DNA from: a virus
Direction: 5' to 3' (one strand)
Virus record (IMG/VR): IMGVR_UViG_3300042115_000064
Coordinates: 1-41,491 of that record
Length of the DNA stretch: 41,491 bases
This document shows positions 15,975 to 39,406 of this stretch, piece by piece (position 1 is the first letter of the stretch; the number at the start of each line of letters is the position of its first letter). The translations under genes and the position numbers were made by a program. Below the pieces are notes generated by a model. That model had not been told where the DNA came from, did not search any database, and saw nothing but the letters and a program-made list of their open reading frames with translations.

Positions 15975-15982
15975 TGGGGCAC

Positions 15983-16680: not shown

Positions 16681-16762
16681 GGGGTTGAATCCTTTAGGGA
16701 AGGTTGTTCAATGCCCGTTTGAACGGGACAGGAACACTTTGCCTGCGCGTCTTGCGCGATCG

Positions 16763-16784
16763 GGATTAACAACCGTTGGTGCAA
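16763..16784 (-). promoter_or_regulatory. Late promoter motif, PP-like
   Basis: Third copy of the shared late motif; on the plus strand the core is GGGATTAACAACC (16763-16775), followed by GTTGGTGCA. It begins at the T run of the preceding terminator and lies 83 bp before the chaperone start, so it should drive the tail operon. The core is a dyad around TAAC, fitting a dimeric Mor/C-type activator. Confidence 0.7.
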
Positions 16785-16812
16785 AAAAGAAGCCCCGCAC
16801 GTGGCGGGGCTA
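16785..16812 (-). terminator. Rho-independent terminator after the tail tube gene
   Basis: On the leftward strand AGCCCCGC and GCGGGGCT (16812-16805 and 16799-16792) form an 8-bp GC stem around CACGT, followed by CTTCTTTTTTG. It closes the head and tail-tube operon 21 bp after the tube stop codon and immediately before a late promoter motif. Confidence 0.88.
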
Positions 16813-16832
16813 ATGGGCAGAGTGTAGCTCGC

Positions 16833-17813
16833 TTACGGGGTGGAATCGCCGAATTCGATGTACAGCTCGTCGCCGCCAGCGTCGCTGGCCACGCACGGGC
16901 CTGACAGCTCCCAGCCGTAGTCGCCGTCAATCTCCACCTCGTTGATGGTGTCGATCTGGCCGCGAATGCCCAGCTCGCTGTACAGCTTGCTCTGTTCGGT
17001 CAGGCGCAGCGAGATGGCCAGCGGCGTTGCCGCATCGCGCAGGGTCCAGGGGTTGAAGTCCGCCAGGGCGGTCTTGGCCAGGCGCAACGTAAAGGTTGGC
17101 GCGCGATCGGTGATGCCCGTTTCCTTGTGCGAGGTGTATTCCTTGGGGGTGATGGTGTTGCCCAGGTCCACCGAGAGCGACTTGGCCCACACCGTCAACG
17201 CCGCGCCACCTGGCAGCACGGTGATTTTGGTCACGGTGTTGTCTGCCCTGGCGACCGTGGGGACCGTGGTCGGCAGGACGATCTCCGGCAGGGCCTCCTC
17301 GGCGATGTTTTCATAGTCGCCCTGGACGCGAACGTTGCCCTTGAAGCGATCGCCGACAGTGATGGCCAGGCTGGTCAGGTTGTGACGGGCCGCCTGCACA
17401 TGCTTCAGGGTGCCGGCGTGCCAGAACTTCGCATCGCTCAGCGCCATGTTGGTGCTGATAGGGTTGTAGCGAGTGGTTTTCTCCGTGGCGTCCTTGACCA
17501 CGGTCATGCCGGCCGGCAGCAGCAGCACACCGCAGTCGGGGTCGCTGTCGGCCGCGCCGCCAGGCGAGGTCGGCGGGTACAGCTCAAACTCGCCCTCAAT
17601 GTAGGCGCGCCGCGCGCCGACAGCGAAAGGCTGGCCGGTCAGGAAGGGGCGGTCGATAGGACGTTCGATCTTGTCGAACTCGGTGCCGCTGGTGCCGTTG
17701 AAGAGCAGGACGCCATTGGTTGCCGGCGCCGGCACGACAGGACTGCCAGCAGCGACGCGCACGGCCAGCGCCAGGCCGCGACGCTTGAAGGGTTCGAGTT
17801 GGGGCTGTGCCAT
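16833..17813 (-). CDS. Major tail tube protein
   Basis: A 326-residue protein forming the stacked rings of the tail tube. It lies just before the chaperone and tape-measure genes, the fixed place for the tube gene in siphophages. The sequence is beta-rich with several VxGxxxxIxLxxxxP-like strands and a carboxyl segment IRGQIDTINEVEIDGDYGW. The size fits a tube subunit with a small added domain. Start ATG 17813 is preceded by GAGGA eight bases away; an in-frame ATG at 17945 would add basic, low-complexity residues that overlap the upstream 58-residue gene. Its transcript ends at the terminator at 16785-16812. Confidence 0.85.
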   Translation of the reverse strand: MAQPQLEPFKRRGLALAVRVAAGSPVVPAPATNGVLLFNGTSGTEFDKIERPIDRPFLTGQPFAVGARRAYIEGEFELYPPTSPGGAADSDPDCGVLLLPAGMTVVKDATEKTTRYNPISTNMALSDAKFWHAGTLKHVQAARHNLTSLAITVGDRFKGNVRVQGDYENIAEEALPEIVLPTTVPTVARADNTVTKITVLPGGAALTVWAKSLSVDLGNTITPKEYTSHKETGITDRAPTFTLRLAKTALADFNPWTLRDAATPLAISLRLTEQSKLYSELGIRGQIDTINEVEIDGDYGWELSGPCVASDAGGDELYIEFGDSTP

Positions 17814-17817
17814 GGGG

Positions 17818-17994
17818 CTATTCCTCGGTGGGAGACGTGGTGGTGTTGGTCCGCTGGCGCGGAGGCTTCGCCGGGTCGGCGGTGACCTTCGGCGTGACCT
17901 GGGGCGGCGTGGGATTTGCCTTGGCCTCATCGACCAGGACGCCATCGATCACGCGCCAAGCGCCGCCGCTGGTCGGGGTGGGTTTGTTGGTCAT
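17818..17994 (-). CDS. Small Pro/Thr-rich protein, 58 residues
   Basis: Begins MTNKPTPTSGGAWRVIDGVL and ends in a Pro/Thr-rich tail. ATG 17994 overlaps the previous stop as ATGA, and its own stop lies four bases before the tube start, so it fills the gap between the tail terminator-like and tube genes exactly. The GGAWRVIDGVLVDE portion looks like a real short domain. It may be a minor tail or head-tail protein; function unknown. Confidence 0.65.
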   Translation of the reverse strand: MTNKPTPTSGGAWRVIDGVLVDEAKANPTPPQVTPKVTADPAKPPRQRTNTTTSPTEE

Positions 17995-18440
17995 CGGGAT
18001 ACCTGCATGCGGTAGTTGGTGGTAAGCACCTGCTGGCTGACCAGCCAGCCGGCCTTGAAGGCTTCGTCGCGGCCCGCCTGGAAGGAGAGTGCATCGAAGG
18101 CGTCAACCGGGGTCCAGCCGATCAGCGCCTGGCGCACGGCGGGGATCACTTCAGTGTCCATCTGCTGGCGGGCGCCAGTGCCCGCCGCTTCCCCCGCATA
18201 GTTGCGGACGAACAGCACCACGCGAATCGTGACGTCGACGTTCTGAATGTGCGGGCCGCCCGTGGAGTATTTCGAGCGCTGCCCCAGCTCGGCGGCAGTC
18301 ACGAACGCGGCCACGGTCGTCTTGGGCTGCTGCTCCAATGCGGTGCTGAGGTCTGCAGCGCTGCCGACTTCGAGCAGCACCGTGGCCTGCTCCTGGAGAC
18401 GGGCAATGATCGCCCCGACCGGGAAGGGGCCAACCGTCAC
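17991..18440 (-). CDS. Tail terminator / Gp37-like head-tail joining protein
   Basis: A 149-residue protein located between the gp36-like joining gene and the tube gene, where siphophages encode the tail terminator. An amino helix (GAIIARLQEQATVLLEVG) is followed by alternating strands (TIRVVLFVRNYAG) and a helical carboxyl end, like small tail-completion proteins. It starts at ATG 18440, overlapping the upstream stop as ATGA. The exact family is not certain. Confidence 0.7.
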   Translation of the reverse strand: MTVGPFPVGAIIARLQEQATVLLEVGSAADLSTALEQQPKTTVAAFVTAAELGQRSKYSTGGPHIQNVDVTIRVVLFVRNYAGEAAGTGARQQMDTEVIPAVRQALIGWTPVDAFDALSFQAGRDEAFKAGWLVSQQVLTTNYRMQVSR

Positions 18441-18943
18441 GGCCGACCATCCCTGCCGAACACCTTGTTTCCTGGATGGATGAGGAAGTCGCCCAGGCCG
18501 GTGGTGCCGGTGGTCGGGTCGGCGCCTCCCAGGTGGAACTCGCCCTTGGCGATCAGCCGTAGAAAATTCATCGCGTCTCGGTAGTCCCGCACGATAGGGT
18601 CGGTGCGCTCATCTGACATGCGATCACCGTGGAGCTGGTAGCGAACGATGCTCCGGGCCCACGTGGGCAGCATGGTGTCCATCTGCGCCAGGGGCAGCTG
18701 ATAGCGCTTCGCCAGGTATCCGTCGATAAGTGCGCCGGCTTGGGCGATCGCTTCCTGGATTCGCACCACGCACGCGTCGGCGCGGACGATTTCGGCGGGA
18801 TCGAAGGCACTACGATCACCCCCGCGCAGCGTGGCGTCCATCAATGCGGCCGACACGGGACGCTGGTCCTTTGCCGTGGCCACCTGCGCCAGTTCCAGGG
18901 CGCCGGGGATCTCGGCCAGCTGCGTGAGGGTGATGTAGCTCAT
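18437..18943 (-). CDS. Mu gp36-like head-tail joining protein (DUF1320)
   Basis: A 168-residue protein with the recognisable start MSYITLTQLAEIPGALELAQ, and the helical middle (IQEAIAQAGALIDGYLAKRY) followed by WARSIVRYQLHG and RDYRDAMNFLRLIAKGE. This pattern is typical of DUF1320 / Mu gp36 proteins, which act as head-completion adaptors. It sits directly after a gp35-like gene, as in Mu. A separate ribosome-binding site is weak, and it starts three bases after the upstream gene. Confidence 0.88.
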   Translation of the reverse strand: MSYITLTQLAEIPGALELAQVATAKDQRPVSAALMDATLRGGDRSAFDPAEIVRADACVVRIQEAIAQAGALIDGYLAKRYQLPLAQMDTMLPTWARSIVRYQLHGDRMSDERTDPIVRDYRDAMNFLRLIAKGEFHLGGADPTTGTTGLGDFLIHPGNKVFGRDGRP

Positions 18944-18946
18944 GGG

Positions 18947-19315
18947 TCAGACGTCCTTGCCCAGGTGCGCCTCGATCTGCGGCACGCGCTCGGCCGGCGC
19001 CAGCGCTTCCCAGGCTGCGGCATCCAGACCGGCCGCTGCCTGCGCCTTGACCTCGGCTTCGCCCCAGGCCTTCTTGCCGCCCGCGTTCTTGGTGGCCGCC
19101 TTCTCGCGAGCGATCGCCGCTTCGTCAGCGCTCGGCTCACCCTTGGCCTTGGTCTCCACGTCCTGGACGATCAGCTCCGGGTCACTCTTGATGGCGTCGA
19201 GCTGGCCTTTCTTCAGGCCGGCCACTTCGATGGTTTCACCCTGGCGGGTGAAGTGGCGGCCTGCGCGCCAACGGCCGCGCTCATGCCTGGATTTCACGAT
19301 GATCTGATTGGCCAT
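18947..19315 (-). CDS. Mu gp35-like protein with FluMu amino-terminal domain
   Basis: A 122-residue protein. Residues 1-50 (IIVKSRHERGRWRAGRHFT, then KKGQLDAIKSDPELIV) match the short FluMu/gp35 domain found between the major head protein and gp36 in Mu-like prophages. The rest is Ala/Glu/Lys-rich and helical. Function unknown, presumably in head completion. The capsid hairpin lies just upstream. Confidence 0.8.
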   Translation of the reverse strand: MANQIIVKSRHERGRWRAGRHFTRQGETIEVAGLKKGQLDAIKSDPELIVQDVETKAKGEPSADEAAIAREKAATKNAGGKKAWGEAEVKAQAAAGLDAAAWEALAPAERVPQIEAHLGKDV

Positions 19316-19347
19316 TGGCCGGTCCTTTCCTTGCTTAGTTGATTGAT

Positions 19348-19374
19348 GGGGCCAGCGCCGCTGGCGCTGGCCCC
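19348..19374 (-). terminator. Strong hairpin after the major capsid gene
   Basis: GGGGCCAGCGCC (19348-19359) and GGCGCTGGCCCC (19363-19374) form a perfect 12-bp stem with loop GCT, 13 bp after the capsid stop. There is no T run and no new promoter motif downstream, so partial termination or protection of an abundant capsid mRNA is more likely than full termination. Confidence 0.6.
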
Positions 19375-19386
19375 GCTCGGATGGCC

Positions 19387-20280
19387 TTACTGAATCCAGG
19401 GCGAGTCGAGGGCCTCGACAACGCCCTTCATCACGTTGTCGGTGCCGGAGATCTGGTTCGCGGTCAGGATCTCCGCCGCCTTGAACTTCAGGTTCGGCGT
19501 GACGACCAGCAGATCCGGGACCAGGCCAAGCGGCCGGCCGTGATCACCGGTACGGCTGGTGAAGGCGGTATAGGCGGCCTGCAGGTTTTCCGCCGTCAGC
19601 GGCTTGTTGCTCGCGTAGCCCATCTGCCAGAAGCCGAAGCCCACGTTGCGGCGGCAATCGGTGCCGTAGCGGAACTCCTTCTTGGTGAACACCGCTTCGT
19701 CGGTTTCGGTGTCCATGGACACGAAGTTCGGGTCCTGGCGGTTCTGGAAGATCAGCGGCTTCAAGGCGCGCTTGGTGCACAGCAGGTACCAGTAGGGGCC
19801 GGTGCCGCCGGAATCGATGTTGCTCTGGGTGACCGTCTTGCCGTCCTTGTCGATGACCGGGTGGTCGGTATCGAAGAAGTTCTGGCCGTCGTAGCACGCC
19901 GTGTTGATGCCGTTCTTCAGCAGCCCAAAGGTCAGTTCATCGGGTTGCGCGCCGACCGCTTCGCCCATGTTCTGCATCATCGGTGTATAGATGCCGACGT
20001 TGTCATCCTGGATGTCGTTCTTGTCGACACCGACCGTCAGCTCGAAGTCCTTGTTCCTGATGGCGTAGCCATGTGCAGCAACCCCGTGGATGACGCGATC
20101 GCCAATCCATTCGCGCATGCCGGGCATCTTGCCCAGCCAGCCGTACTCGTTGGACTTGGTGCTGGACGGCACCACGGTGGCGATACGCTGATAGAGAGAC
20201 GGCGCCTGGCCGAGGCCCTGCTTGAATGCGGCGTTGAACGCTACTTCCAGCGCCTGGAGATTTCCGCGAGTGACTTGCAT
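19387..20280 (-). CDS. T: Major capsid protein (Mu gpT-like)
   Basis: The 297-residue head shell subunit. Its opening, with FNAAFKQGLGQAPSLYQRIA and EYGWLGKMPGMREWIGDR, is characteristic of Mu gpT major head proteins, as are YGYAIRN-like and NDIQDDNVGIYTPMMQNMGE phrases in the spine-helix region. The closing half has WYLLCTKRALKPLIFQ and PDLLVVTPNLKFKAAEIL. Start ATG 20280 has AGGT upstream; a longer in-frame reading overlaps the decoration gene and is Pro/Ser-rich antisense-like sequence. It follows protease/scaffold and decoration genes, the usual head order. Confidence 0.95.
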   Translation of the reverse strand: MQVTRGNLQALEVAFNAAFKQGLGQAPSLYQRIATVVPSSTKSNEYGWLGKMPGMREWIGDRVIHGVAAHGYAIRNKDFELTVGVDKNDIQDDNVGIYTPMMQNMGEAVGAQPDELTFGLLKNGINTACYDGQNFFDTDHPVIDKDGKTVTQSNIDSGGTGPYWYLLCTKRALKPLIFQNRQDPNFVSMDTETDEAVFTKKEFRYGTDCRRNVGFGFWQMGYASNKPLTAENLQAAYTAFTSRTGDHGRPLGLVPDLLVVTPNLKFKAAEILTANQISGTDNVMKGVVEALDSPWIQ

Positions 20281-20314
20281 GTGAGTTACCTGTCGAAGTG
20301 TTGGAGAGGCGGGA

Positions 20315-20719
20315 TCAACCGACCAGGACCCAGACGCCAGCGGCGTCCACGTCGATGATCTTTCCGGCGACCTTGCGAGCGGCGCTGTTGTCGGTCTTGG
20401 CCACGGTCTGGTCATCGACCACAAAGGCGTTGGCGCCGATGTCGGCGCGGGTGACCTGGTCGGCCGCAGCACTGTTGGCGAAGTGGAACGCGTGGCCACG
20501 CCAGGCGTCGGCCTGGACAGTGCCATCGCCGAGCCCATCGCTCTGAGCGACGCCAACGGCATCACCCGACCCAGCGGTGCCGGCTGGCACGGCGTTGCCG
20601 TTGGTGGTCAGGAGGGCAATCATCGTGCCAGCCCAGATCTGGGTGCCGGGATTGATGAGGTGGCCAACGCGCTGAGCGTCGCGGCGATTGGTGTTGCGGC
20701 CCTGGGTGGCTGCAGTCAT
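20315..20719 (-). CDS. Capsid decoration-like protein
   Basis: A 134-residue protein between the protease/scaffold and major capsid genes. It is small, Ala/Gly/Val-rich and beta-prone (GTMIALLTTNGNAV, AVGVAQSDGLGDGTV), like head decoration proteins that bind the outside of phage shells. ATG 20719 is preceded by AAGGA, and just before that lies an AT-rich TATATATA unlike the surrounding sequence. The role is inferred from position and composition. Confidence 0.65.
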   Translation of the reverse strand: MTAATQGRNTNRRDAQRVGHLINPGTQIWAGTMIALLTTNGNAVPAGTAGSGDAVGVAQSDGLGDGTVQADAWRGHAFHFANSAAADQVTRADIGANAFVVDDQTVAKTDNSAARKVAGKIIDVDAAGVWVLVG

Positions 20720-20726
20720 GGCAGAG

Positions 20727-20740
20727 TCCTTATATATAGG
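20727..20740 (-). promoter_or_regulatory. AT-rich leader of the decoration gene
   Basis: CCTATATATAAGGA on the leftward strand is an isolated AT block in a GC-rich operon. It includes the AAGGA ribosome-binding site. It may keep the translation start unpaired for high output, or hold a -10 element; no good -35 is seen. Confidence 0.35.
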
Positions 20741-20759
20741 CGTGATTGACGCGTTGCCG

Positions 20760-21320
20760 TCAGGCGGACGGCTTGGCGGCGGCGTAGTCCTTCGGGCTGA
20801 TGCCGGTCATCGAGCAGACGGCCAGCTCGCTGGCATCCAGGCCGTGCGCATCCTTGGCTTCGTCACCGCCTGGCTTCCTGCCGTGGGTTTGGGTCTGGCT
20901 GAGTGCGGCGATTGCCGGGGCGCCGGCCAGGTACTTGCTCAGCGCGGCAATGTCGGACTTGCCCAGGTCGGTGGCCCAGTCCTTCAGGGCGGGGAGGATG
21001 CGACCATCGGCCAGACCCTGCTCGACCAATGCGGTGACCTTCTCGTTGGTGCGCTCTGCACTGAGCGCGGCCAACTGGCCACGGATCTCTTCCACCGCGC
21101 TCAGCGGCACGAACTTGGTTGGGTCCGGCTTGGTGGACGCCGCCTTCAGGGCCGAGCAGGCAGCCAGCGCGCCGCCTTCATCAGCACCCAGTTCGGCAGT
21201 CAGGCTTTCCAGCGTGGCCAACTTCGGGCCCAGCTTGCTGCAGGCGGCAATGGCCTGCTCTTCGGTGGTGGTTGCGGGCAGTTTCAGTGCAGCCAGCAAG
21301 GCTACGAGCAAGGGATTCAT
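20760..21320 (-). CDS. Z: Internal-start scaffold protein (Mu gpZ-like)
   Basis: Within the I gene an in-frame ATG (21320) is preceded by GAGGA seven bases away and would give the 186-residue carboxyl half beginning MNPLLVALLAALKLP. In Mu the scaffold Z is produced from the 3' half of I in the same frame. The product is Ala/Leu/Glu-rich and helical, as expected for a scaffold. The site is visible in the sequence; independent production is an inference from Mu. Confidence 0.65.
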   Translation of the reverse strand: MNPLLVALLAALKLPATTTEEQAIAACSKLGPKLATLESLTAELGADEGGALAACSALKAASTKPDPTKFVPLSAVEEIRGQLAALSAERTNEKVTALVEQGLADGRILPALKDWATDLGKSDIAALSKYLAGAPAIAALSQTQTHGRKPGGDEAKDAHGLDASELAVCSMTGISPKDYAAAKPSA

Positions 21321-21872
21321 CGGGTGGTCCTCGGTGTCGGTGTGGAACGCGAACGTGGCAGCCGCACGCAGGGACAGCGCCTGCATGTCATCGATCGCGG
21401 GGGTGTTGGTGATGGCGGCCATTTCGATCGTCAGCACCTCGCCGGTCTTCTCATCGAAGCGGAAGACCGGCGATACGTAGCGGTACTCCTCGGCGTCGAT
21501 CGCAGCGAGCGCGCGAGCCGTTGGGCGGGCAATAGCCCAGAGGCCGGAACCTTCGCGCCATTGCAGCGCACGCATCCAGGCAGCGGCCGGCGCAGGCTGC
21601 CCGTTGGTTTCCTTGTTGAGGGTCTGATGCTCGTAATCGACAACGAGCGGCTTGTTCTTCGCGTTGAAGCGGGCGATGACGCGTTCAGCCACCGCCGCAT
21701 CGATGTACCAGGCCGGCACAGGCAGTTCGCGGCCATCGTTGGGCCGGAACTCGCCTGCAGGCGTCAGCTGCATTTCGATGGTTCCGTCATCGGCAAGGCT
21801 CAACGGCAGCTTGAAGCTGCACGCGGCGATCGCGACGTTCGAGGGGATAGGGGTCTGGGCTGGTTTGGTCAT
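20760..21872 (-). CDS. I: Head maturation protease with scaffold (Mu gpI-like)
   Basis: A 370-residue protein. The amino half has the Mu I protein signature: VAIAACSFKLPL, DGREVPV-like GRELPVPAWYID, KPLVVDYEHQTLNKE, WMRALQWREG and YRYVSPVFRFDEKTGEV, followed by AITNTPAIDDM. The carboxyl half is helical and acidic like a scaffold, and can also be made alone from an internal start. The protease cuts scaffold and itself during prohead maturation. First gene of the second late operon, with a late motif 34 bp upstream. Confidence 0.92.
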   Translation of the reverse strand: MTKPAQTPIPSNVAIAACSFKLPLSLADDGTIEMQLTPAGEFRPNDGRELPVPAWYIDAAVAERVIARFNAKNKPLVVDYEHQTLNKETNGQPAPAAAWMRALQWREGSGLWAIARPTARALAAIDAEEYRYVSPVFRFDEKTGEVLTIEMAAITNTPAIDDMQALSLRAAATFAFHTDTEDHPMNPLLVALLAALKLPATTTEEQAIAACSKLGPKLATLESLTAELGADEGGALAACSALKAASTKPDPTKFVPLSAVEEIRGQLAALSAERTNEKVTALVEQGLADGRILPALKDWATDLGKSDIAALSKYLAGAPAIAALSQTQTHGRKPGGDEAKDAHGLDASELAVCSMTGISPKDYAAAKPSA

Positions 21873-21905
21873 CCCAGCCAGATTGGCCGGTCGACTGAGC
21901 GGATC

Positions 21906-21927
21906 GGGATTAACATCCGCTAGTGCA
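21906..21927 (-). promoter_or_regulatory. Late promoter motif, PI-like
   Basis: The core, GGGATTAACATCC (21906-21918, plus strand), then GCTAGTGCA, is nearly identical to the copies at 16763 and 30541. It lies 34 bp before the I protease start, the place of the C-dependent PI promoter in Mu. The closeness leaves room only for a very short leader. Confidence 0.68.
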
Positions 21928-22127
21928 GATGGGGGGCAACAGCCCTCGCGCCATCGAGCCCAAACTGTACACGTTCTGCGAAAAATCGGCCGTTCACCGC
22001 AACGCGACCTTCACTGCCGACCGCAACAGCGTTTGAAAGGCGTTTAAATCGCCCCTGGGCGCCTCGGACGGGGCGGCCTCGGACGGTGGCTGCGCCCAGG
22101 GGGGCTCAGGGGGCCTGCGGGGCCGTT
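21928..22127. other. Non-coding gap between gpG and I; candidate central gyrase site
   Basis: No frame with a credible start fills this gap on either strand. It lies about 600 bp from the prophage midpoint (21,395), between the same two genes that flank the strong gyrase site of Mu. It contains a large inverted repeat: CCCCTGGGCGC (22052-22062) and GCGCCCAGGGG (22092-22102), whose loop holds two copies of GCCTCGGACGG (22061-22071 and 22076-22086). The hairpin could also end the gpG transcript. Gyrase-site function is inferred from position only. Confidence 0.45.
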
Positions 22128-22679
22128 TTAGGCGGGGGCCAGATTTCCGCCTTCGGCGTCCAATTCCAGCCAGGCAACAGCAAGCTGCTCGATGGCCTCA
22201 GCATCGGCCTCACTGACGCCCAGGAAAGGGCGCGCTGGCAGGCCCGGATGGTTGACCTTTCTAACGAACCCCGGTGACTCCTTCCCGTCCTTGCCGGTGC
22301 GCATCTGCATTCCTGGCCAGAACAGCGCTTTGCCCGGCTTGGCTTGGATGACATACGGGTCTGTGCCCTCCTGGTGCCACCTGGCCTGCTTTGAATCGGC
22401 GCGGATCTCCACCCAATCCACGCCCGATAGGGGATGGATGCCATCCCTGGTGCGGTGCGTCGCGTTCAGCGGCGTGCGGCCAGATCCGTCTGCCAGTGGT
22501 TGCCAGGCGACGCCATCAGGGCCGATGCCCGTGTCGAACCGCGCCTGGGTGCTCTCGGTCAGGTCCTCGCCGATCTGGGCCATCAGGCCACCGAGGTCGG
22601 CGCTGCGGCGGTGCAGTTCGCCGAACCAACGCTCCGCCAGGTCGGCATCTACCTGGAGAATCAGGGGTTCGTCAGCCAT
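22128..22679 (-). CDS. G: Virion morphogenesis protein (Mu gpG-like)
   Basis: A 183-residue protein of the phage virion morphogenesis family, which in Mu acts in head-tail completion. Diagnostic phrases are DLGGLMAQIGEDLTESTQAR, GPDGVAWQPLA, HQEGTDPYVIQAKPGKAL and GLPARPFLGVSEADAEAIEQ near the end. It follows gpF as in Mu and is the last gene of the first late operon. Start ATG 22679 overlaps the end of a 50-residue frame that bridges from gpF. Confidence 0.9.
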   Translation of the reverse strand: MADEPLILQVDADLAERWFGELHRRSADLGGLMAQIGEDLTESTQARFDTGIGPDGVAWQPLADGSGRTPLNATHRTRDGIHPLSGVDWVEIRADSKQARWHQEGTDPYVIQAKPGKALFWPGMQMRTGKDGKESPGFVRKVNHPGLPARPFLGVSEADAEAIEQLAVAWLELDAEGGNLAPA

Positions 22680-22824
22680 GGTATTCTCCGGCCACGGACC
22701 AGGGACCAGCCGCCCCTGGTGTAGCGGCCCCAGGGCCGCAATCCTTCCACAGGGTGGGCCAGCCCCCGAGGCCCTGCAGGAAGCGCCGCAGAGCGAGCTG
22801 GCGCGTCTGTGAGCAAAGGCTCAT
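22672..22824 (-). CDS. Possible small protein between gpF and gpG, 50 residues
   Basis: Starts MSLCSQTRQLALRRF. Its ATG (22824) overlaps the gpF stop as ATGA and its stop overlaps the gpG start by 8 bp, so it exactly bridges the only gap in this part of the operon; AAGG lies eight bases upstream. It is basic at the amino end and Gly/Pro-rich at the carboxyl end. I do not recognise it, and it may be chance in GC-rich DNA. Confidence 0.4.
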   Translation of the reverse strand: MSLCSQTRQLALRRFLQGLGGWPTLWKDCGPGAATPGAAGPWSVAGEYHG

Positions 22825-24023
22825 TCTTCCGACCTTCCCCATACCAACACTCCTTGCCGCGATCGCGGCTGTGGCTTGTTGCCCCGGAAGAAGTCGAACG
22901 AGCCCCATACGCCACCTGGCAGCACTTCGGCGATGACGGTCAACGCATAGCGCTTCGCCGCCGCGCCTTCACCGTCGGTCACTTCAACCCGCTTGACGTA
23001 GTAGCGGCGCAGGCCGACCTTGCCGGCGTCGTTCTGGGCGAAGTTGGCCCAGATCTCGAACGGTGCCTGGATGGTCTCGGCCAGGAGCGGCAGGTACTTC
23101 TCCCGACCATCCAGGCGCGAGGGCTTCTCCAGCCAGTGCTCGATCACCTGGTCGGTCAACAGCACCGGGTCGCCTGCGGGATCGCGCAGCGTGGAGGTCT
23201 CGCCGTACAGCTCCCGCCAAACCTGGCGCACGCGCTGCGGGTCGCGGATGCCGCTGGCCAGGGGCTGAGCTGCGGCAGCATCAAGCGGAACCTGCGCCGG
23301 TCGCCCGTACTCCGCTGCGGTCTTGCCCGGCAGCTCGGACCACTTCGCCGCTGCATCCTTGGCTAGGGCGGCGTCGGCGATCTGGCGACCGTTGGCTGCA
23401 TGCCCCACGTGATAGGCCCACTCCGGTGGCGGGTCACCGAGGACGGCGGCAGGTCGTTCGCTGACCTTCCAGCGCATCGCGCGCATCTTGGCCTCGGACA
23501 CGCCGATCACCGTGCAGTGGCAGCCCCAGCCGTTCGGCGTGTAGTGCGTTTCCCACCATGGATCGGTCGACGGCAGGATGATTCCGTCCCACGCCTTGTG
23601 CTGCTCGCGGGGATTGCGCACGGTGTTGTGCTTGTAGCGCAGGTAGGGGAAGTGGCGCAGCGTCTCCCAGCGGCCCGCCTGGTAGGCGGTCCGAATGTTG
23701 GTGTTGTAGATGACTGCCGTGCGCCAGGCCTGGCCGCCAGGACTGCCTTCGCCGGTCCAGCCAACCCAGCCGTTGCGCTTGACGATTTCACGGAACCTGG
23801 CGCGGAAGTCTTCCAGGGTCTCGCCTTTCGTGATGGCAGCGTCGACTGCCTCGCGCAGGTCCGTCAGCAGGGCGTCACGGGTGGCGCCGGCAACGACGAA
23901 TGCCCGCGCGTGCTGTCCCTGCCAGAGATCGTTCCAGCGCCTGGTCGGCAGATTGACCTTGTCGCGGAAGTAACGCTCTGCCTCGGGCAGGCTTCCGAAG
24001 TTGCCCCGGATCTCAGCCACGGC
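22821..24023 (-). CDS. F: Minor head protein (Mu gpF / SPP1 gp7-like)
   Basis: A 400-residue protein needed for head assembly near the portal and for DNA ejection. The phage Mu F-like domain is clear: VIYNTNIRTAYQAGRWETLR, then RNPREQHKAWDGIILPSTDPWW and the family hallmark TPNGWGCHCTVIGVSEAKM. The carboxyl part (about 290-390) adds an alpha/beta domain with AVLLTDQVIEHWLEK-like and PLLAETIQAPFEIWANF phrases, seen in the longer Mu-like F proteins. GTG 24023 has GGAAGA five bases upstream and overlaps the portal gene; ATG 24038 is an alternative. Confidence 0.92.
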   Translation of the reverse strand, partial: AVAEIRGNFGSLPEAERYFRDKVNLPTRRWNDLWQGQHARAFVVAGATRDALLTDLREAVDAAITKGETLEDFRARFREIVKRNGWVGWTGEGSPGGQAWRTAVIYNTNIRTAYQAGRWETLRHFPYLRYKHNTVRNPREQHKAWDGIILPSTDPWWETHYTPNGWGCHCTVIGVSEAKMRAMRWKVSERPAAVLGDPPPEWAYHVGHAANGRQIADAALAKDAAAKWSELPGKTAAEYGRPAQVPLDAAAAQPLASGIRDPQRVRQVWRELYGETSTLRDPAGDPVLLTDQVIEHWLEKPSRLDGREKYLPLLAETIQAPFEIWANFAQNDAGKVGLRRYYVKRVEVTDGEGAAAKRYALTVIAEVLPGGVWGSFDFFRGNKPQPRSRQGVLVWGRSEE

Positions 24024-25596
24024 TGTCTTCCAGCGCATCGAACATGCCAGCAGCGCCGCCGATCGCCAGCGCGTGCTGCATGGCACGGGTGAACTGATCG
24101 GCGCTCATCGATGGCAGCAGATCGAGCAGACCCTGTCGGATGTGTTCCAGGTCCGGGGCGGTATCGACCAGCTGCTGGATCTTCTCGACCCAGTCGGAAA
24201 TCAACGGATCGATCTCGCCGCCCACCAAGGCAGCAAGCTGGTCCTCCCGGTCCCGGCCACGGCCGCCCTGCACGGTCGCCACCGCCAGGCCGGCCTGGGT
24301 GAGCGCGGCCACGCCTGCAGGAGGCGAGACAGCGCCGTCGATCAGCACAGGCTCATTGGGGCCGGCCTCTGGAATGCCCAGCTCGGTGTGGACCCAGGCC
24401 GGATTGATCCGCATGCCCAGTTTGACCAGCGGAGGCAGCGCCGTGGCGTATGCGCCGATGTCCTTGGTCTCTGCCAGGTCGAAGGTGAAGCGCGGGCAGC
24501 GCCGGCGATCGCCCTGCGGAATGAGGCCGTTCAACATCGCCAGCGGATAGATCAGGTCGCGCGTCAGCGTGGTGGCCACCTGCTTGGCGTCGGCATCCTT
24601 CAGCTCCTTGCGTACCTCGTTGTGCACCTCGCCCAGGGCGTTGGTGCTGCTCTTGCCATCAGCCTGGCTGGTCAGCGTACCGCCCAGAATGGCCTTGCTC
24701 TGGCTGCGTTCGCACCAGCTGATCATCAGCTCGAATGCCTTGGGGTCACCTTCGGCAACGGCGGGGAAGTCCATGGTCATCCCTTCGGGGATGATGCCGG
24801 CCGCGTTGTGGCCGATCTGCATCAGCGCCCGGAGCAGCGTCAGCTTCTCCTTCTCGGATGCACCAGGCGGATACTTACCGATGCGCATCGGGATGCCGTA
24901 AATCTCCAGGAACTCGGCCAGGTCGCCGACGCTGTAGTTCTTGAACAGGTACGGCCACACCAGCACACGGAACAATGCGGAGCGCTCCAGATAGCCACTC
25001 TTCGCAGCGTGCGTATGGGTGATCCAGCCATAGGGCTGCAGCGCTTCGCCATCGCCGCCACCCACCCGCAGACGGATTTCCTGCTGATAGCCGCGCTTGA
25101 ACTGGAACCAGCTCTGCGGCCGGTGCAGGATCGACTTGGGCTGCCACTCGGCGCCCAAGCGCTGCCACTCGATCTCCTGGCAAGCAAAGCCCTTGCCGAT
25201 CGCGTCGGTGGTGTCGAAGAAGATGCCTTCCAGGTTGTCCATCGACTCCAGCACTTCCTGCAGCTGCTCGGCATTCTTCTTCTCGACCGCGCTGGCGTTC
25301 TTGGGTGGTGCGATCTTCCAGGACAGACTGGCCACGGCGCGGCGTCGCTTGGACATCTCGGAATAGATGTGGGCGTCGCGCTCTTCCATGTCCTCGAACA
25401 GCTCGTACTGTCGGATGACGTCGCCTTGCTCGGCGGCCAGCATGATCGCGGCCAGGCGCGAGGGCGTCAGGCCGCGCGAAGGGTGCCCTTGGAACTCACG
25501 CTGCAGCTGGAGCGCGTGGGCAGTTTGCGGCTCGGCCAGCTCGGTGATGCGGAAGGGCTGGCCATCGGGGCCGAGGATGCGGGAGTTGTTCACCAT
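24013..25596 (-). CDS. Portal protein (Mu gp29-like, DUF935)
   Basis: A 527-residue protein that forms the dodecameric DNA channel at the head vertex. Family phrases include GLTPSRLAAIMLAAEQGD, ELFEDMEERDAHIYSEMSKR, KGFACQEIEWQRLG, LVWPYLFKNYSVGDLAEFLE, YGIPMRIGKYPPGASEKEK and GGTLTSQADGKSSTNALGEV. All are characteristic of DUF935/Mu gp29. The length is typical. It starts at ATG 25596, overlapping the terminase end by 7 bp, and is followed by gpF. Confidence 0.95.
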   Translation of the reverse strand: MVNNSRILGPDGQPFRITELAEPQTAHALQLQREFQGHPSRGLTPSRLAAIMLAAEQGDVIRQYELFEDMEERDAHIYSEMSKRRRAVASLSWKIAPPKNASAVEKKNAEQLQEVLESMDNLEGIFFDTTDAIGKGFACQEIEWQRLGAEWQPKSILHRPQSWFQFKRGYQQEIRLRVGGGDGEALQPYGWITHTHAAKSGYLERSALFRVLVWPYLFKNYSVGDLAEFLEIYGIPMRIGKYPPGASEKEKLTLLRALMQIGHNAAGIIPEGMTMDFPAVAEGDPKAFELMISWCERSQSKAILGGTLTSQADGKSSTNALGEVHNEVRKELKDADAKQVATTLTRDLIYPLAMLNGLIPQGDRRRCPRFTFDLAETKDIGAYATALPPLVKLGMRINPAWVHTELGIPEAGPNEPVLIDGAVSPPAGVAALTQAGLAVATVQGGRGRDREDQLAALVGGEIDPLISDWVEKIQQLVDTAPDLEHIRQGLLDLLPSMSADQFTRAMQHALAIGGAAGMFDALEDSRG

Positions 25597-27236
25597 GCTT
25601 CAGGTTCCGGAATAGAGAGGTCGTAGCCGTCATGTGAGACGGTGTCGTAGCCGCGGCTGCTACGCGGCATGGGCGTCCATGCCATTTCCGCACCTGGGTG
25701 CCGGCTTGCGTAGTACATGAGGGCAATGGCGATGCCGGCATCGCCGTGGCGCTGCCCACCGTCCTTGCCGGTGGAGCGCTCAGGCACGCGGGCAACGCCC
25801 TTGATCATCTTGATGGCGCGCAGGTCGCCCAGAACGTCCTTGTCGCGCGGGACGGCGATGGTGTCGTCCTCGAATGCCTGCTTCAGTGGAGGCATGTTCT
25901 CGCGGTACCAGGTCTCCGTTGCCATGACGAGGGCGACACGGCTGTACCCGAACTCCTGGGCGAGGAACTCGGCCACGGCGTTGCCGTTGCCGCGCGCATC
26001 CACCGCTGCCTTGACGAAGCGCGGCAGGCGCTTGATGACGTACTGGGCCACCTGGTCCTGCTGCTTGTGCGGCATGTTCCGCAACTCCAGCAGGAACGGG
26101 ATGCGGCGACGCAGGTTCTGCTCGATCTGCGCTGGCACCATGACGGTCAGATCGCCCGAACGGCCGAAGTCCTGCCCGAACACGCTCTGCAGCTCCGGGT
26201 CCAGTGCGTCCAGTAGCGGGCCGACTTCTAGATCCAGCCATTCCTGGACGGCAGTGCGGCGCGCGTTATCTGACTGCTGCTCGAAGCCCTTGGGGCAGGT
26301 GTAGCGCAGGACCGGTGCGCCGTACATGCGCTGTTCGACCAGGGCTGTGGTCAGCCACGCGCCCGAGCCTTGACTTGGCACAACGTCCAGCTCTTCCTCG
26401 GCTGCCGAGCCGTAGAAGGCATAGACGCTGGCAACCCAAACGGCCTGGGCATCCACGTTCCATACCGCGCCCTTGCGCATGCAGACGCGGCCGTACAAAC
26501 CCTGCTCGACAGCTTCCATAAACGTGATGCGGTGGACGCTGCCCTTTCGGCCACCCGCCCGGATCTCGTTCACCAGCTCGTTGAACGGATTTTGATCGCC
26601 GTCATGGGTGCTGATAACACGGACCTTGCCGCCCCAGATCAGCAGCGCCAGGGCGGCCTTCAGCAGTTCACCCAGGGCGCCGTGGAATGCGGCCTCATCG
26701 ATGACCACCACGCCCTGCTTGCCGCGCAGGTTGGCCGGACGCGAGGACAGGGCCACGATGCGGAAGCCGCTGGCAAAGCGGATGGTGTAGGTCTTGATCG
26801 ACTTTTCATCGTCGCCATCCTTGAAGACTTCTTCGCCTTCCTCGACGTCTTCGGCCACCTGGTTGAACACGCGCGCCCACATGGCGCAGGCCTCGATGTA
26901 CTCGATGGCCATGTCCATGTTGTAGCCGATGTAGTACACGTTCATCCCGCCGCCCTGGCGGGACTTGGCGGCGGTCAGCACGTTGTCTGATGCTTCGGCC
27001 CAAGTGAGGCCTACGCGTCGGCTCTTCTCGGCCACCTTCAGGTCGCTGTCATCGGCAACCCAGTCCTGCTGGTACTTCAGCAGCACAGCGTCGATCGCGC
27101 TGTTGACCTCGACGGCGAGCGATGCCGGCAGTTCGTCCCGCAGCAGATCCTTGGCACGATCAGCCCGGTGGACGGCTTCCGCCAGCGGGGTCTTGGTTGG
27201 CGCAGCCTTCGGGCGCGCGGCGCTTGCGATGACCAT
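25590..27236 (-). CDS. Terminase large subunit (Mu gp28-like)
   Basis: Packaging motor ATPase and nuclease, 548 residues. The Walker A region is the atypical Mu-type KSRRVGLTW (71-79) and Walker B is VVVIDEAAF (176-184); PANLRGKQG and ISTHDGDQNPFNE follow. The nuclease half has GQDFGRSGDLTV (Asp 356), AVDARGNGNAVAEF and GDAGIAIALMYYA, with spaced acidic residues of the RNase H fold. Mu-type terminases package by headful from the replicated prophage into host DNA. It starts at ATG 27236, overlapping the small-subunit stop as TGATG. Confidence 0.95.
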   Translation of the reverse strand: MVIASAARPKAAPTKTPLAEAVHRADRAKDLLRDELPASLAVEVNSAIDAVLLKYQQDWVADDSDLKVAEKSRRVGLTWAEASDNVLTAAKSRQGGGMNVYYIGYNMDMAIEYIEACAMWARVFNQVAEDVEEGEEVFKDGDDEKSIKTYTIRFASGFRIVALSSRPANLRGKQGVVVIDEAAFHGALGELLKAALALLIWGGKVRVISTHDGDQNPFNELVNEIRAGGRKGSVHRITFMEAVEQGLYGRVCMRKGAVWNVDAQAVWVASVYAFYGSAAEEELDVVPSQGSGAWLTTALVEQRMYGAPVLRYTCPKGFEQQSDNARRTAVQEWLDLEVGPLLDALDPELQSVFGQDFGRSGDLTVMVPAQIEQNLRRRIPFLLELRNMPHKQQDQVAQYVIKRLPRFVKAAVDARGNGNAVAEFLAQEFGYSRVALVMATETWYRENMPPLKQAFEDDTIAVPRDKDVLGDLRAIKMIKGVARVPERSTGKDGGQRHGDAGIAIALMYYASRHPGAEMAWTPMPRSSRGYDTVSHDGYDLSIPEPEAW

Positions 27237-27802
27237 CAGCCGATTCCCAGGATCTTCTTGCGGAACTCGTTGGCCCGCTCTTCGGACAGGCCGCCCGACT
27301 TGACGACGTTGTCCAGCTTCGCGGCCTGCTCGCGCTGCAGGGCCTCGCGGGCCTCCTGCGCGACCGCGCGGCGGACGTTGACGCTCATCCGCTGGGTGTT
27401 CATCGCGTCGTTGGCAGCACGCGCCAACTTGCGGATGTCCTCGATGCTGGTTTCGTCGCTTTCGTGCGCTTTCAGCGCCGCGTTGGTTGCCAGAGTGGTG
27501 ATGGCGTGACCCAACAGTGCGCCGGCCTTCTCGCCGACACCTTCGCCCAGCTCGCCCACCACCGCCTGGGCGGCAGCCTCGATGTCCCGCATGCGGGCGG
27601 TCATGGCTGAGATGCCCTGGTGATAGCGATGCAGCGCCGATTTCGATACTTCCGCTGCCGGCTCACCTGGAAACGTCTGTTGCAGCTCGGCGATCATCTC
27701 CGCCAACGTCAGGCGGTCCTCGCGGAGCAGGCGCTCCACATGGGCGCGCTGCTCGGGCGGCAGACGCTGGATGCTGGACTTTCCGCGACGTGGGGCAGTC
27801 AT
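27236..27802 (-). CDS. Terminase small subunit (Mu gp27-like, DUF3486)
   Basis: A 188-residue DNA-recognition subunit of the packaging complex. Its opening RRGKSSIQRLPPEQRAHVER and helix-turn-helix-like LTLAEMIAELQQTFPGE, followed by VSKSALHRYHQG, match DUF3486/Mu gp27. The rest is helical with a central GEKAGALLGHAITTLATNAA. It precedes and overlaps the large subunit, as in Mu. Confidence 0.92.
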   Translation of the reverse strand: MTAPRRGKSSIQRLPPEQRAHVERLLREDRLTLAEMIAELQQTFPGEPAAEVSKSALHRYHQGISAMTARMRDIEAAAQAVVGELGEGVGEKAGALLGHAITTLATNAALKAHESDETSIEDIRKLARAANDAMNTQRMSVNVRRAVAQEAREALQREQAAKLDNVVKSGGLSEERANEFRKKILGIG

Positions 27803-27806
27803 GACG

Positions 27807-28112
27807 TTACCGCGCGCTCGGGCGGCGGACGCCGGGCACGAACGTCATGCCAGTGGCAACGTCCTGGCCGCGCTGGGTCAGTTCGGCCACCAGGACACCG
27901 GGGACCGCCTCGCTGACCCGCAGCAGGCCCTGCTCACCGAGCCAGGTCAGGTCCGTCAGGACATCGTCCCGGCTGCCCGCCACAGCCATGTGGTGCAGCC
28001 CCGCGTGCAGCGTGGAGCTGTTGGCGCGGTAGCCATTCTGTTCTGCCAGCAGGCGCAGCAGCACCAGGCGGCGGTCCTCGCGCATGCGCTCGGCAAAGGT
28101 CTTCTGGGTCAT
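27807..28112 (-). CDS. Winged-helix protein (Mu gp26 / VpaChn25_0724-like)
   Basis: A 101-residue protein with the recognisable pattern FAERMREDRRLVLLRLLAEQ, then GYRANSSTLHAGLHHMAVAG, SRDDVLTDLTWLGEQGLL and ELTQRGQDVATG, which is the winged-helix fold of Mu gp26-like proteins encoded just before the terminase. ATG 28112 overlaps the upstream stop as TGATG; upstream codons in the same frame are antisense-like and were not included. Possibly involved in packaging or late regulation; role unproven. Confidence 0.88.
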   Translation of the reverse strand: MTQKTFAERMREDRRLVLLRLLAEQNGYRANSSTLHAGLHHMAVAGSRDDVLTDLTWLGEQGLLRVSEAVPGVLVAELTQRGQDVATGMTFVPGVRRPSAR

Positions 28113-28387
28113 CAATCTTTCTCCAACAGATGGGTTTGGACGGTCATCAGCATTTCGTTCGTCGTTTCGAGCTGGACCTCCAGCGTCACCAGGCGCTCGA
28201 ACACTCGCTGGACTTCTTGGCGGGAAAGGTGGTGCTGGTAGTTCACCTCCAGTTTTGTGACGCGGTCGGCCAGGCCTGAGTGGCGCCACCACAGAACGAT
28301 CCCCACCAGGAGGTTGATCGACACCAGGCCTGCGACCAGCACCAGGAGCCCCACCACCATCGGCCCGGCCATGACGGGGTCGCTCAT
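28112..28387 (-). CDS. Membrane-anchored coiled-coil protein (Mu gp25-like, DUF2730)
   Basis: A 91-residue protein. Residues 6-30 form one hydrophobic membrane span (PMVVGLLVLVAGLVSINLLV) and the remainder is a charged coiled coil (LETTNEMLMTVQTHLLEKD). This is the DUF2730/Mu gp25 pattern, found between lysis and terminase genes. ATG 28387 overlaps the upstream stop as ATGA. Role unknown, maybe linked to lysis. Confidence 0.82.
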   Translation of the reverse strand: MSDPVMAGPMVVGLLVLVAGLVSINLLVGIVLWWRHSGLADRVTKLEVNYQHHLSRQEVQRVFERLVTLEVQLETTNEMLMTVQTHLLEKD

Positions 28388-28605
28388 CGGGTCTCCAGCG
28401 CGCCAGCGCATGTCACGCAGCGGCGGGTCCGAGGCACGGCGCGCTGTCGGGCTTCTGGGATGCTGGTACCGCAGTCCACGCAATCCATCGGCGTCAGGAT
28501 TGCGGGCGGTCCGGCCAGGTACGCGTCACGCGCGAGCCGGTTGCGTTCGTGTTCTTCCCAGGCTCTTGCGTCGACCTCACCGGCCATATCAGCGTCGTCT
28601 TGCAC
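28384..28605 (-). CDS. DksA/TraR-type C4 zinc-finger protein
   Basis: A 73-residue protein with the TraR/DksA zinc finger CVDCGTSIPEARQRA and RRCVTC; the four Cys are residues 42, 45, 63 and 66. The amino helix carries acidic residues (VQDDADMAGEVDARAWEE) as in TraR, which enters the RNA polymerase secondary channel. The start is taken as GTG 28605, with GAAGGA nine bases upstream; ATG 28623 and ATG 28587 are in frame but have weaker sites. A role in tuning polymerase during late growth is inferred from the family. Confidence 0.82.
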   Translation of the reverse strand: MQDDADMAGEVDARAWEEHERNRLARDAYLAGPPAILTPMDCVDCGTSIPEARQRAVPRTRRCVTCAGALETR

Positions 28606-28795
28606 TCGGGTGTTTCCTTCCATTGATCAGGTCGAAGAGATCAGCGGCGCAGCCCGCGTAGGCGCGCGCCTGGCCCTCCAGAGCGGCGGCGCGGTCGCCG
28701 CGCAGCTTCTTGGCTTCAGTTCTGCACCGCAGTGTCAGGTCGAGGTACTCGTTGCGCAGGGTTGCCAGGTCCTTCTCGGTTGCGCCCGCCATCAC
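28589..28795 (-). CDS. Small helical phage protein
   Basis: A 68-residue helical, charged protein (LATLRNEYLDLTLRCRTEAK). ATG 28795 overlaps the Rz stop as ATGA. It shares 80 bp with the 3' end of the Rz1-like gene in another frame. Not recognised; it fits the row of small Mu-like genes between lysis and terminase. Confidence 0.68.
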   Translation of the reverse strand: MMAGATEKDLATLRNEYLDLTLRCRTEAKKLRGDRAAALEGQARAYAGCAADLFDLINGRKHPSARRR

Positions 28796-29174
28796 CGCAG
28801 CCCGCCGCTCGAACCTGCGACTGCTCCAGCGCCCGGCAGTACCACTGCCATGCCGTTGCCTCCCAGTCGTCCGTGGCCAGGATCAACGCCCGGCCCCGTG
28901 CGCTGCAGTCGTGATACAGGGAGGCCACCAGGTCGTGGTTGCCCAGCAGGGTCGCCAGAAGGTCGTTGGGTGCCATCGGCAGCGTCGGGCATTCCTGCTT
29001 CAGGCTGGCCTGGATCGCGGGCGGGGGTGGCGGCGGCGGGCTTGCCTTGGTTGCTTTGGTTCCAGTGCTGCAGGACGTCAGCGCCAACGCGAGCAGCACG
29101 CAGCTCAGGGCGACGTTCAAGCAACGATTCCAGCGCCACCCGCTGGTCTTCGGTGAACCTGCGGTTCTCTTCAC
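28716..29174 (-). CDS. Rz1: Outer-membrane spanin lipoprotein (Rz1-like), nested in Rz
   Basis: A frame lying mostly inside the Rz gene. It encodes a signal peptide ending in the lipobox LTSC (VALSCVLLALALTSC), then a Lys-rich spacer and a run of seven Pro (SPPPPPPP), a classic Rz1 feature. The mature part has QECPTLPMAPNDLLATLLGN and LVASLYHDCSARGRAL. GTG 29174 has GGAG seven bases upstream. It acts with Rz to fuse inner and outer membranes at lysis. At 152 residues it is longer than the Rz1 of lambda, because it continues past the Rz stop. Confidence 0.85.
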   Translation of the reverse strand: MKRTAGSPKTSGWRWNRCLNVALSCVLLALALTSCSTGTKATKASPPPPPPPAIQASLKQECPTLPMAPNDLLATLLGNHDLVASLYHDCSARGRALILATDDWEATAWQWYCRALEQSQVRAAGCGDGGRNREGPGNPAQRVPRPDTAVQN

Positions 29175-29442
29175 GGTTGTGCTCCAGGGATTCGGCAATG
29201 GTGTTCATGCGGTCGATCGCCTGGGCGTAGGCGATGGCCGTATCAGCGGCCCGCGTGTGCAGGTGGGTGAGCTGCTGCTCCAGGTCCTTGATGTACGCCT
29301 GGTGTTCCGCGCGATCCTTGATCGCCCGGCCACCCTCGGCCCAGCGGTTGCCTGCCCACAGGCCAGCGGCGATCGCCGTGGCCAGCAGCAGCGCGATGGC
29401 CAGGAGCTTTCCTGCCGTGGACTCAATCCGGCTCACTGACAT
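28792..29442 (-). CDS. Rz: Inner-membrane spanin (Rz-like)
   Basis: A 216-residue protein. One amino-terminal membrane span (LLAIALLLATAIAAGLWAG) is followed by a long periplasmic coiled coil (KDLEQQLTHLHTRAADTA; NREENRRFTEDQRVALESLL). Beyond residue 130 the frame is open but Pro/Gly-rich, because selection there is on the overlapping Rz1 frame. ATG 29442 overlaps the transglycosylase stop by 10 bp. It pairs with the nested lipoprotein to span the cell wall after endolysin action. Confidence 0.82.
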   Translation of the reverse strand: MSVSRIESTAGKLLAIALLLATAIAAGLWAGNRWAEGGRAIKDRAEHQAYIKDLEQQLTHLHTRAADTAIAYAQAIDRMNTIAESLEHNREENRRFTEDQRVALESLLERRPELRAARVGADVLQHWNQSNQGKPAAATPARDPGQPEAGMPDAADGTQRPSGDPAGQPRPGGLPVSRLQRTGPGVDPGHGRLGGNGMAVVLPGAGAVAGSSGGLR

Positions 29443-30125
29443 GGGGAACTCCCCGGCCACCCGGCCGCGATGTAGGCCGGTTCCAGCACCAGCAAGATGC
29501 GTCGCGGATAGCCGATGTTCTCGCGGTGCGCCCAGTCGGCGCGCGCGCGGAACTTGGCGACCTGGTGCCAGTCGTTGGAATCGGCGCCGGCCGCATACGC
29601 CAGGCTGCGCTCGCGGTTCAGGGCCTTCTCGCCGCCGTTGTAGGCGCGGAAGGTGAAGGCCCAGCGGCTGCACTCGGACATCGTCCCGCCGCCGTACACC
29701 GCAACGCGGTCGAGCAGCCAGCGGTCGTACAGCGCCGCTGCCAGGATGGCCTGCTGTGCGTTCCAGGGATCGAACGCCGCCAGATCCTTGGGGAACACCG
29801 TCGCGATCCACGTTGCGGTCTTGGGCATGAACTGCGCGATGCCCTGGGCACCGACCGGTGAACGGGCGTCAGCGCGAAAGCCCGACTCCTGGTGCAACTG
29901 CGCGGCCAGGCGCGCCGGACTGCCGTGCACGCCCCAGGCTCGCGCGGCGGCCTGTTCGACACGATGGCGGTACAAGGCCGATGCAGGAGCGACACGGACT
30001 GCCGTCCGCTTCGGCTCCGCAGCCTGGGCGGCACGACAGCTGCCGATTGCCAGGACTGCAAGCACCGTCAGGACCGCCGCCGCCAGCAGCCGCAGCGCCC
30101 GGTCGGGGTAGCCGCGCCGACTCAT
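29433..30125 (-). CDS. Lytic transglycosylase endolysin (SLT domain)
   Basis: A 230-residue enzyme that cleaves peptidoglycan between MurNAc and GlcNAc. The SLT fold is shown by LAAQLHQESGFRADARSPVG (catalytic Glu 80) and AQGIAQFMPKTA, then NAQQAILAAALYDRWLL and AFRAYNGGEKALNR. Residues 9-36 form a hydrophobic Ala/Leu-rich segment (ALRLLAAAVLTVLAVLAIGS), followed by a possible cleavage site AQA-AE. It is therefore exported either as a Sec-cleaved enzyme or as a signal-anchor-release endolysin. It sits between holin and Rz, overlapping both. Confidence 0.92.
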   Translation of the reverse strand: MSRRGYPDRALRLLAAAVLTVLAVLAIGSCRAAQAAEPKRTAVRVAPASALYRHRVEQAAARAWGVHGSPARLAAQLHQESGFRADARSPVGAQGIAQFMPKTATWIATVFPKDLAAFDPWNAQQAILAAALYDRWLLDRVAVYGGGTMSECSRWAFTFRAYNGGEKALNRERSLAYAAGADSNDWHQVAKFRARADWAHRENIGYPRRILLVLEPAYIAAGWPGSSPCQ

Positions 30126-30445
30126 CCGATCAACCCTGCCGCGATCATGGCTGCAGCGATCAGGGTCACCCTGCGCGTCTGCGCCATCGACTTCTCCAGC
30201 CCGTCCTGAAGGTGCCGGGGATCAGCGCCACGGAAGACGGTCAGGTCCACGCCGAAACCGATGGCCGCAGCCAGAGTCAGCTTGGAAGCGGCCCAGATAT
30301 AGGAGGCCACCAGCACGGGATTGATCAGGGCGACCACCGCCAGCAGGACCAGGCTGATTGCAAACCACAGCCAGATGTAGCCAATGCGGTCGAGCAGCGA
30401 CCCGATGGCCGAGGTGAGTCGCAGGATGGGGTTGTTGGGTTGCAT
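30122..30445 (-). CDS. Putative holin
   Basis: A 107-residue membrane protein with hydrophobic segments at about 24-42 (YIWLWFAISLVLLAVVALI), 47-67 (VASYIWAASKLTLAAAIGFG) and 95-107 (LIAAAMIAAGLIG). It is the first gene of the first late operon, upstream of the endolysin, where holins lie. Start ATG 30445 has GGAG five bases upstream; an in-frame GTG at 30451 overlaps that site and is unlikely. Confidence 0.78.
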   Translation of the reverse strand: MQPNNPILRLTSAIGSLLDRIGYIWLWFAISLVLLAVVALINPVLVASYIWAASKLTLAAAIGFGVDLTVFRGADPRHLQDGLEKSMAQTRRVTLIAAAMIAAGLIG

Positions 30446-30540
30446 GTGCACTCCGCTGTTGTGGGTAGCGGGGTGCTTTGCTGTAGTTACGCCAAGCCAT
30501 CCCCCGGTCTACACAGAATCCGCGCGCGTGCGATGTGACT

Positions 30541-30562
30541 GGGAATAACATCCATCAATGAA
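30541..30562 (-). promoter_or_regulatory. Late promoter motif, Plys-like
   Basis: The core, GGGAATAACATCC (30541-30553, plus strand), then ATCAATGAA, matches the motifs at 16763 and 21906; 14 of 22 positions are the same in all three. It begins right after a terminator and lies 96 bp before the holin, where Plys is in Mu. Confidence 0.7.
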
Positions 30563-30586
30563 AAAGCCCCGCAGTTGCGGGGCTTT
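30563..30586 (-). terminator. Rho-independent terminator ending the early/middle operon
   Basis: AAAGCCCCGC (30563-30572) and GCGGGGCTTT (30577-30586) form a perfect 10-bp stem with a four-base loop, followed on the leftward strand by TTTTTCATT. It lies 21 bp after the lipoprotein stop. Confidence 0.9.
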
Positions 30587-30606
30587 CTGTTGTGAACCGT
30601 CGAGGG

Positions 30607-39341: not shown

Positions 39342-39406
39342 CCTTGCGTCTCCTGCAGGTGGGCGGCGCGAGTGCGCCTGGGGGAAGCTGTAGATAGATG
39401 CACCCT

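Follow-up and report, generated by a model that had tools for sequence, protein, structure and literature searches.

Late promoter-like sites in a Mu-like phage resemble Mu C-dependent promoters and change in step with the recognition helix of the resident Mor/C-family protein

The DNA considered here, termed the window, is the whole 41,491-nucleotide stretch of IMG/VR virus record IMGVR_UViG_3300042115_000064. It contains minus-strand operons for lysis, head and tail functions together with a gene of the Mor/C activator family, and the features of interest are the following.

30963–31397, minus strand: Mor/C-family activator gene (PF08765, E 1.7e-24, 86.3 bits against a cut-off of 24.9), with the recognition helix around T114–Q125 (TEVSVYRIIREQ)
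30565–30584, minus strand: terminator hairpin AGCCCCGC-AACT-GCGGGGCT with a T run, immediately ahead of the lysis promoter; read from the sequence and conserved in the sister-phage alignment
30546–30557, minus strand: putative late operator of the lysis operon, dyad TGATGGATGTTA, then TTCCC at 30545–30541; syntenic in G001, with another shared sequence in G002–G004
30515–30520, minus strand: lysis -10-like hexamer GATTCT, 20 bp past CCC; predicted start near 30508
30122–30451, minus strand: holin-like gene, first of the lysis operon (phrog_1528, E 3e-7; PF13272, weak)
21911–21922, minus strand: putative late operator of the head operon, dyad TAGCGGATGTTA, then ATCCC at 21910–21906
21880–21885, minus strand: head -10-like hexamer CAATCT; the I-gene ATG starts 7 nt past it and the mRNA is predicted to be leaderless
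20760–21872, minus strand: Mu-like I protease gene, first of the head operon (PF10123, E 3e-104)
16791–16811, minus strand: terminator hairpin directly before the tail promoter
16767–16778, minus strand: putative late operator of the tail operon, dyad CAACGGTTGTTA, then ATCCC at 16766–16762
16736–16741, minus strand: tail -10-like hexamer CAAAGT; predicted start near 16729; CAAAGTG unchanged in G001–G004
16321–16680, minus strand: first gene of the tail operon, tail-assembly-chaperone-like by position only; no Pfam or PHROG match
11028–16148: tape measure gene (phrog_339)

The product of the 30963–31397 gene lies above the curated PF08765 cut-off and has a C-terminal helix-turn-helix, as expected of the Mor/C family. 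It is the only PF08765 match in the whole record, in agreement with the original prediction of a single Mor/C gene at 30963, and in having one activator gene the window differs from Mu, which possesses both Mor and C and uses them in a two-step cascade (Mor, then C). The PDB matches of the window Mor are 9l0x, 9vw8 and 1rr7 (Mu C and Mor). An AlphaFold model of moderate confidence (mean pLDDT 69), used only for placing the last helix, puts this helix at residues 115–140. GemA is encoded at 32578–33006, upstream of mor, as is also the case in Mu and DMS3. A scan of genome contigs with the window Mor found no relative.

The sequence GGGAWTAACAWCC is present exactly three times in the window, on the plus strand and facing the minus-strand operons, at 16762–16774, 21906–21918 and 30541–30553; read on the minus (coding) strand these are CAACGGTTGTTAATCCC, TAGCGGATGTTAATCCC and TGATGGATGTTATTCCC, respectively. 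Three copies had been noted originally, with no other seen, and this was borne out by the exact search, as were the positions 21906 and 30541; the third copy, placed at 16763, in fact lies at 16762. A fourth copy is absent from the whole 41,491-base record, a control pattern gave no match, and allowing one or two mismatches added no copy in the window. Each copy precedes the start of a late operon, as proposed, namely those beginning with the holin gene, the I protease gene and the small gene before the tape measure (a chaperone by position). With three mismatches there are 20 matches in all against 12.3 expected, which is near background, and the abundance of such loose matches is what might recommend chance similarity in a GC-rich genome as the explanation. 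However, a matrix of 24 positions, comprising the 17-bp operator and the -10, scored 34.5–37.1 bits at the three sites against 14.6 bits at the next-best place in the window, a gap of more than 19 bits, and in each round of a leave-one-out analysis the left-out site ranked right behind the two training sites. In view of this gap and this recovery, the objection that many further copies might lie inside genes does not hold; none such were found. The likeness among the three upstream regions was equalled by only 2 of 2000 random triples. Moreover, the three sites are syntenic in four related phages, and this synteny, together with the concerted change described below, already refutes chance, to which we assign a negligible probability.

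Exactly 20 bases past the operator lie CAAAGTG (16762 site), CAATCTG (21906) and GATTCTG (30541), and among offsets of 5–59 only 20 gives all three hexamers an A as second and a T as sixth base. With the hexamer set at -12 to -7, the axis of the dyad TAAC-N4-GTTA falls at -43.5. The dyads of the window itself are imperfect (TAGC/GTTA, CAAC/GTTA and TGAT/GTTA). The original prediction had misplaced the symmetry in centring a dyad on TAAC. This dyad, GGAT-GTTA-ATCC, was rejected as the main symmetry, being complete at 21906 alone, with the conserved axis in relatives further upstream (TAGC-GGAT-GTTA). The TG-A remarked upon earlier matches a CA that is conserved immediately upstream of the latter dyad. 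No sigma-70 promoter was found in 16000–31500, and the dyads stand upstream of weak -10 elements at the spacing known from Mu, lacking a sigma-70 -35.

The C-dependent promoters of Mu, as annotated in its record, are at lys CATAATCCC-N20-TAGACTG, at I CATAACCCC-N20-CAAACTG and at P CATAACCCC-N20-TATCCTT, with CATAAnCCC, N20 and a hexamer in common; mom, for which the printed sequence was inspected by eye, has ATAACCAC-N20-TAAGAT. The window sites share with lys, I and P the succession of right half, n, CCC, N20 and a hexamer with A2 and T6, which supports the Mor/C regulon originally proposed. As with Plys, PI, PP and Pmom, the operon set includes lysis and head genes and the activator belongs to the same Pfam family; one operator precedes the lysis and head (I) operons and a further late operon, which in the window begins before the tail chaperone and tape measure and in Mu before gene P. 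The half-site differs, being GTTA in the window and CATA in the Mu late promoters, and no mom promoter was seen in the window. The lys and I promoters of Mu follow terminators, and in the window terminators directly precede the 16762 copy (16811–16791) and the 30541 copy (30584–30565), as had been noted originally. A dyad centre of about -43.5 is also shared with the Mu middle promoter Pm, for which the published centre of the site of Mor, a homologue of the window protein, is -43.5 (PMC4287176); however, Pm is a single promoter driving the middle operon with C, and its site sequence and spacing are different.

We consider it very likely that all three are late promoters of the Mu C/Mor type, dependent on an activator and controlled by the single Mor/C protein. 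We hypothesize that this protein, encoded downstream of GemA, would bind as a dimer, or possibly as two dimers, to TAAC-N4-GTTA, with the bound dyad centred about 43.5 bp upstream of the predicted start and next to the -35 position, and would recruit host RNA polymerase to the poor -10 elements, thereby turning on the three operons (lysis, head and tail) at once. The proposed placement next to -35 and the recruitment of polymerase rest on the homologous proteins C and Mor of Mu, for which structures in complex with Escherichia coli RNA polymerase are available (PDB 9l0x and 9l0y). Since four C chains are listed for 9l0x and four for 9vw8, two dimers per promoter would be possible and could, by analogy, explain the conserved CA upstream and CCC downstream of the dyad.

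Four sister phages were aligned with the window in the absence of any spacing constraint. G001, with a Mor 97% identical, has the same three sites, whereas G002–G004, with the same synteny and a Mor 65% identical, have another motif, GAAGSRCTTTAGTCCC, common to the same three places, with N20 kept and the hexamers GAAGCTG, GAATCTG and CAAAGTG. Since two of the window copies directly follow terminators, and intergenic recombination could homogenize sequences, the motif might be regarded as a piece of terminator or intergenic spacer kept by descent or recombination and owing nothing to protein recognition; but no terminator was seen directly before the 21906 copy, from one clade to another the two half-sites of the dyad change symmetrically, with the flanking CCC and the -10 left as they are, and homogenization would not produce a correlation with a protein helix. 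We therefore regard this explanation as highly improbable. Other clades have operators of their own, among them TGACGCGCGTCATTCCC at all three sites of L024, TGACGYGCGTCAGTSCC in L029–L031 and TAGCGCGCGYTAATCCC in L028, and so have many more distant phages, such as L099 with TTCGGCTAGCCGAAAAG and L120 with TTGCCCTCGTTCAAAAG, found in a scan in which the spacing was imposed. L024 and L030 have one operator type in common. In a distant group the axis was placed 1 bp closer to the -10, a choice made from symmetry. When the regions upstream of gene I were scanned de novo for repeats, 26 of 50 phages scored 5 or more, compared with 1.6% of random regions. Some Mor-bearing relatives showed no clear operator set, and in many contigs only one or two sites could be seen. 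In contigs such as G014, G024, G025 and G028 (L094, L113, L114 and L117) mor is at the far end, on the other strand and some 20 kb away from the I operator, yet the operator sets are intact.

A natural exchange is provided by L028 and L029–L031, which are about 95–97% identical across 11.8 kb of late genes and differ in their Mor genes, the mor-bearing block failing to align. Their operators differ at both visible sites, 8.6 kb apart (the L028 contig stops before the tail operator). At gene I there are at most two differences from the CCC of the operator to the start codon, yet the dyads are TAGCGCGCGCTA in L028 and TGACGTGCGTCA in L029–L031, and the holin operator has been switched in the same way. 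The swapped operators were probably brought in by recombination of adjacent intergenic DNA; either way, the operators of each genome fit its own Mor. These comparisons bear on the view that the sites are operators of some other regulator, for example a repressor silencing the late operons in the prophage, with only a secondary resemblance to Mu. A dyad overlapping the -35 region could also serve a repressor, and the phage encodes other DNA-binding proteins, such as the phrog_2345 regulator at 38886–39410. Against this, the layout equals that of Mu C-dependent promoters, operators differ between near-identical late regions with different Mor genes, and operator sequence tracks the Mor helix, as detailed below; we consider a different regulator unlikely, with only a small chance of being correct.

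Across 13 phages having both genes, the distance between operators correlated with the distance between recognition helices (r 0.66) and not with that between I proteins (r 0.10). The partial Mantel r for operator and helix was 0.66, with 0 of 5000 permutations as high, a figure that overstates independence because helix/half-site types are related by descent. The operator tracks the recognition helix of the resident Mor, not genome relatedness: L027 and L028, whose I proteins differ at 68% of positions, have the helix core IHVYRIC in common and both have TAGC..GCTA, whereas L028 and L030, whose I proteins differ at 1% of positions, have different helices and different operators. L027 was inspected after its helix had suggested TAGC..GCTA, and TAGCGCGCGCTA was present at both sites; in L063 the operator predicted from the helix was not found in the short stretch covered. 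Among 25 helix/half-site types the strongest pair was helix position 7 (h7) with the third base from the axis (r3), for which the mutual information had a z of 10.3 (0 of 1000), and the counts, which common descent again makes not fully independent, were Arg with G in 12 of 12, Lys with T in 6 of 6, Ser with C in 3 of 3, Gln with T in two, Gln with C in one and Glu with T in one. One helix residue thus predicts one operator base across 25 types. The counterpart in the window is Arg120 and the G of GTTA, and Arg120 is a candidate specificity residue; in the mechanism proposed here, the helix would set the half-site bases, with Arg120 paired to this G.

A regulon of this kind is itself known; what is new is an operator code extending across the family and the prediction that the head-protease mRNA is leaderless. 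It seems probable, with less assurance than for the three promoters themselves, that in Mu-like phages the activator and its operators form interchangeable lock-and-key sets that are private to each clade, are switched together when the activator is exchanged and obey a helix-to-base code in which h7 reads r3, and that most of these phages have a head-protease mRNA whose start coincides with its own AUG. Operators would be private to each clade because activator and operators evolve as lock and key. In Mu, C and Mor are close relatives and each is inactive on the promoters of the other (PMC4287176). The 25 natural types and the near-isogenic natural swap make the basis of Mor/C specificity directly testable, and late promoters of Mu-like phages become open to simple prediction from sequence. 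Among the papers searched there was no report of such operators outside Mu, an absence that is not proof. At the DNA level, the late region matched none of the annotated phages searched.

The I-gene ATG lies 6–9 bases past the hexamer, almost always 6 or 7, in 29 of 30 phages including the window (all but L043), a set overlapping with close relatives, and from this distance the transcript is predicted to begin at or next to the AUG. By contrast, gene I of Mu does have a leader, and a ribosome-binding site is annotated for it. In 22 of 27 phages a GC-rich inverted repeat surrounds the -10 and runs up to the I start codon (21870–21895 in the window); its sequence varies with pairing kept, and it is absent in L020–L022 (L077). 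Inverted-repeat scores averaged 15.1 at I ATGs and 3.8 at random ATGs of the same phages (0 of 5000 resamples). Considered as RNA, the hairpin has 5 G-U to 2 A-C mismatches, counts that are few, and the repeat may act either as DNA or as RNA in read-through transcripts.

The D3112/DMS3-like Pseudomonas phages (Casadabanvirus) resemble the window in GemA–Mor order, in having a PF08765 activator and in GTTGAACCCCTTC, an element shared at the same offset ahead of both the lysis and the I genes; they differ in having other half-sites and a weaker dyad, and no third copy was found. At the late-promoter offset GTTGAACCCCTTC occurs at 3155 and 11930 in DMS3 (L151) and at 1201 and 10245 in D3112 (L186), and both stretches are present in 122 phage records; they are candidate late operators of these laboratory phages. 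The site following Mor is altered in JBD88a and JBD16C, neither of which showed a clear operator at that place.

Beyond the left-end genes of the phage, an ORF at 40904–41479 encodes a histidine-kinase-type ATPase (PF02518) and probably belongs to host DNA adjoining the prophage. In the F-like minor head protein (22821–24086), residues 293–416 form a C-terminal PBECR2 nuclease-like domain (PF18810). Just before the I operator lies a fast-evolving ORF with no family matches (22106–22444), which overlaps a G-like gene (22128–22679) in another frame and occupies the place at which the anti-CRISPR gene of DMS3 is located.
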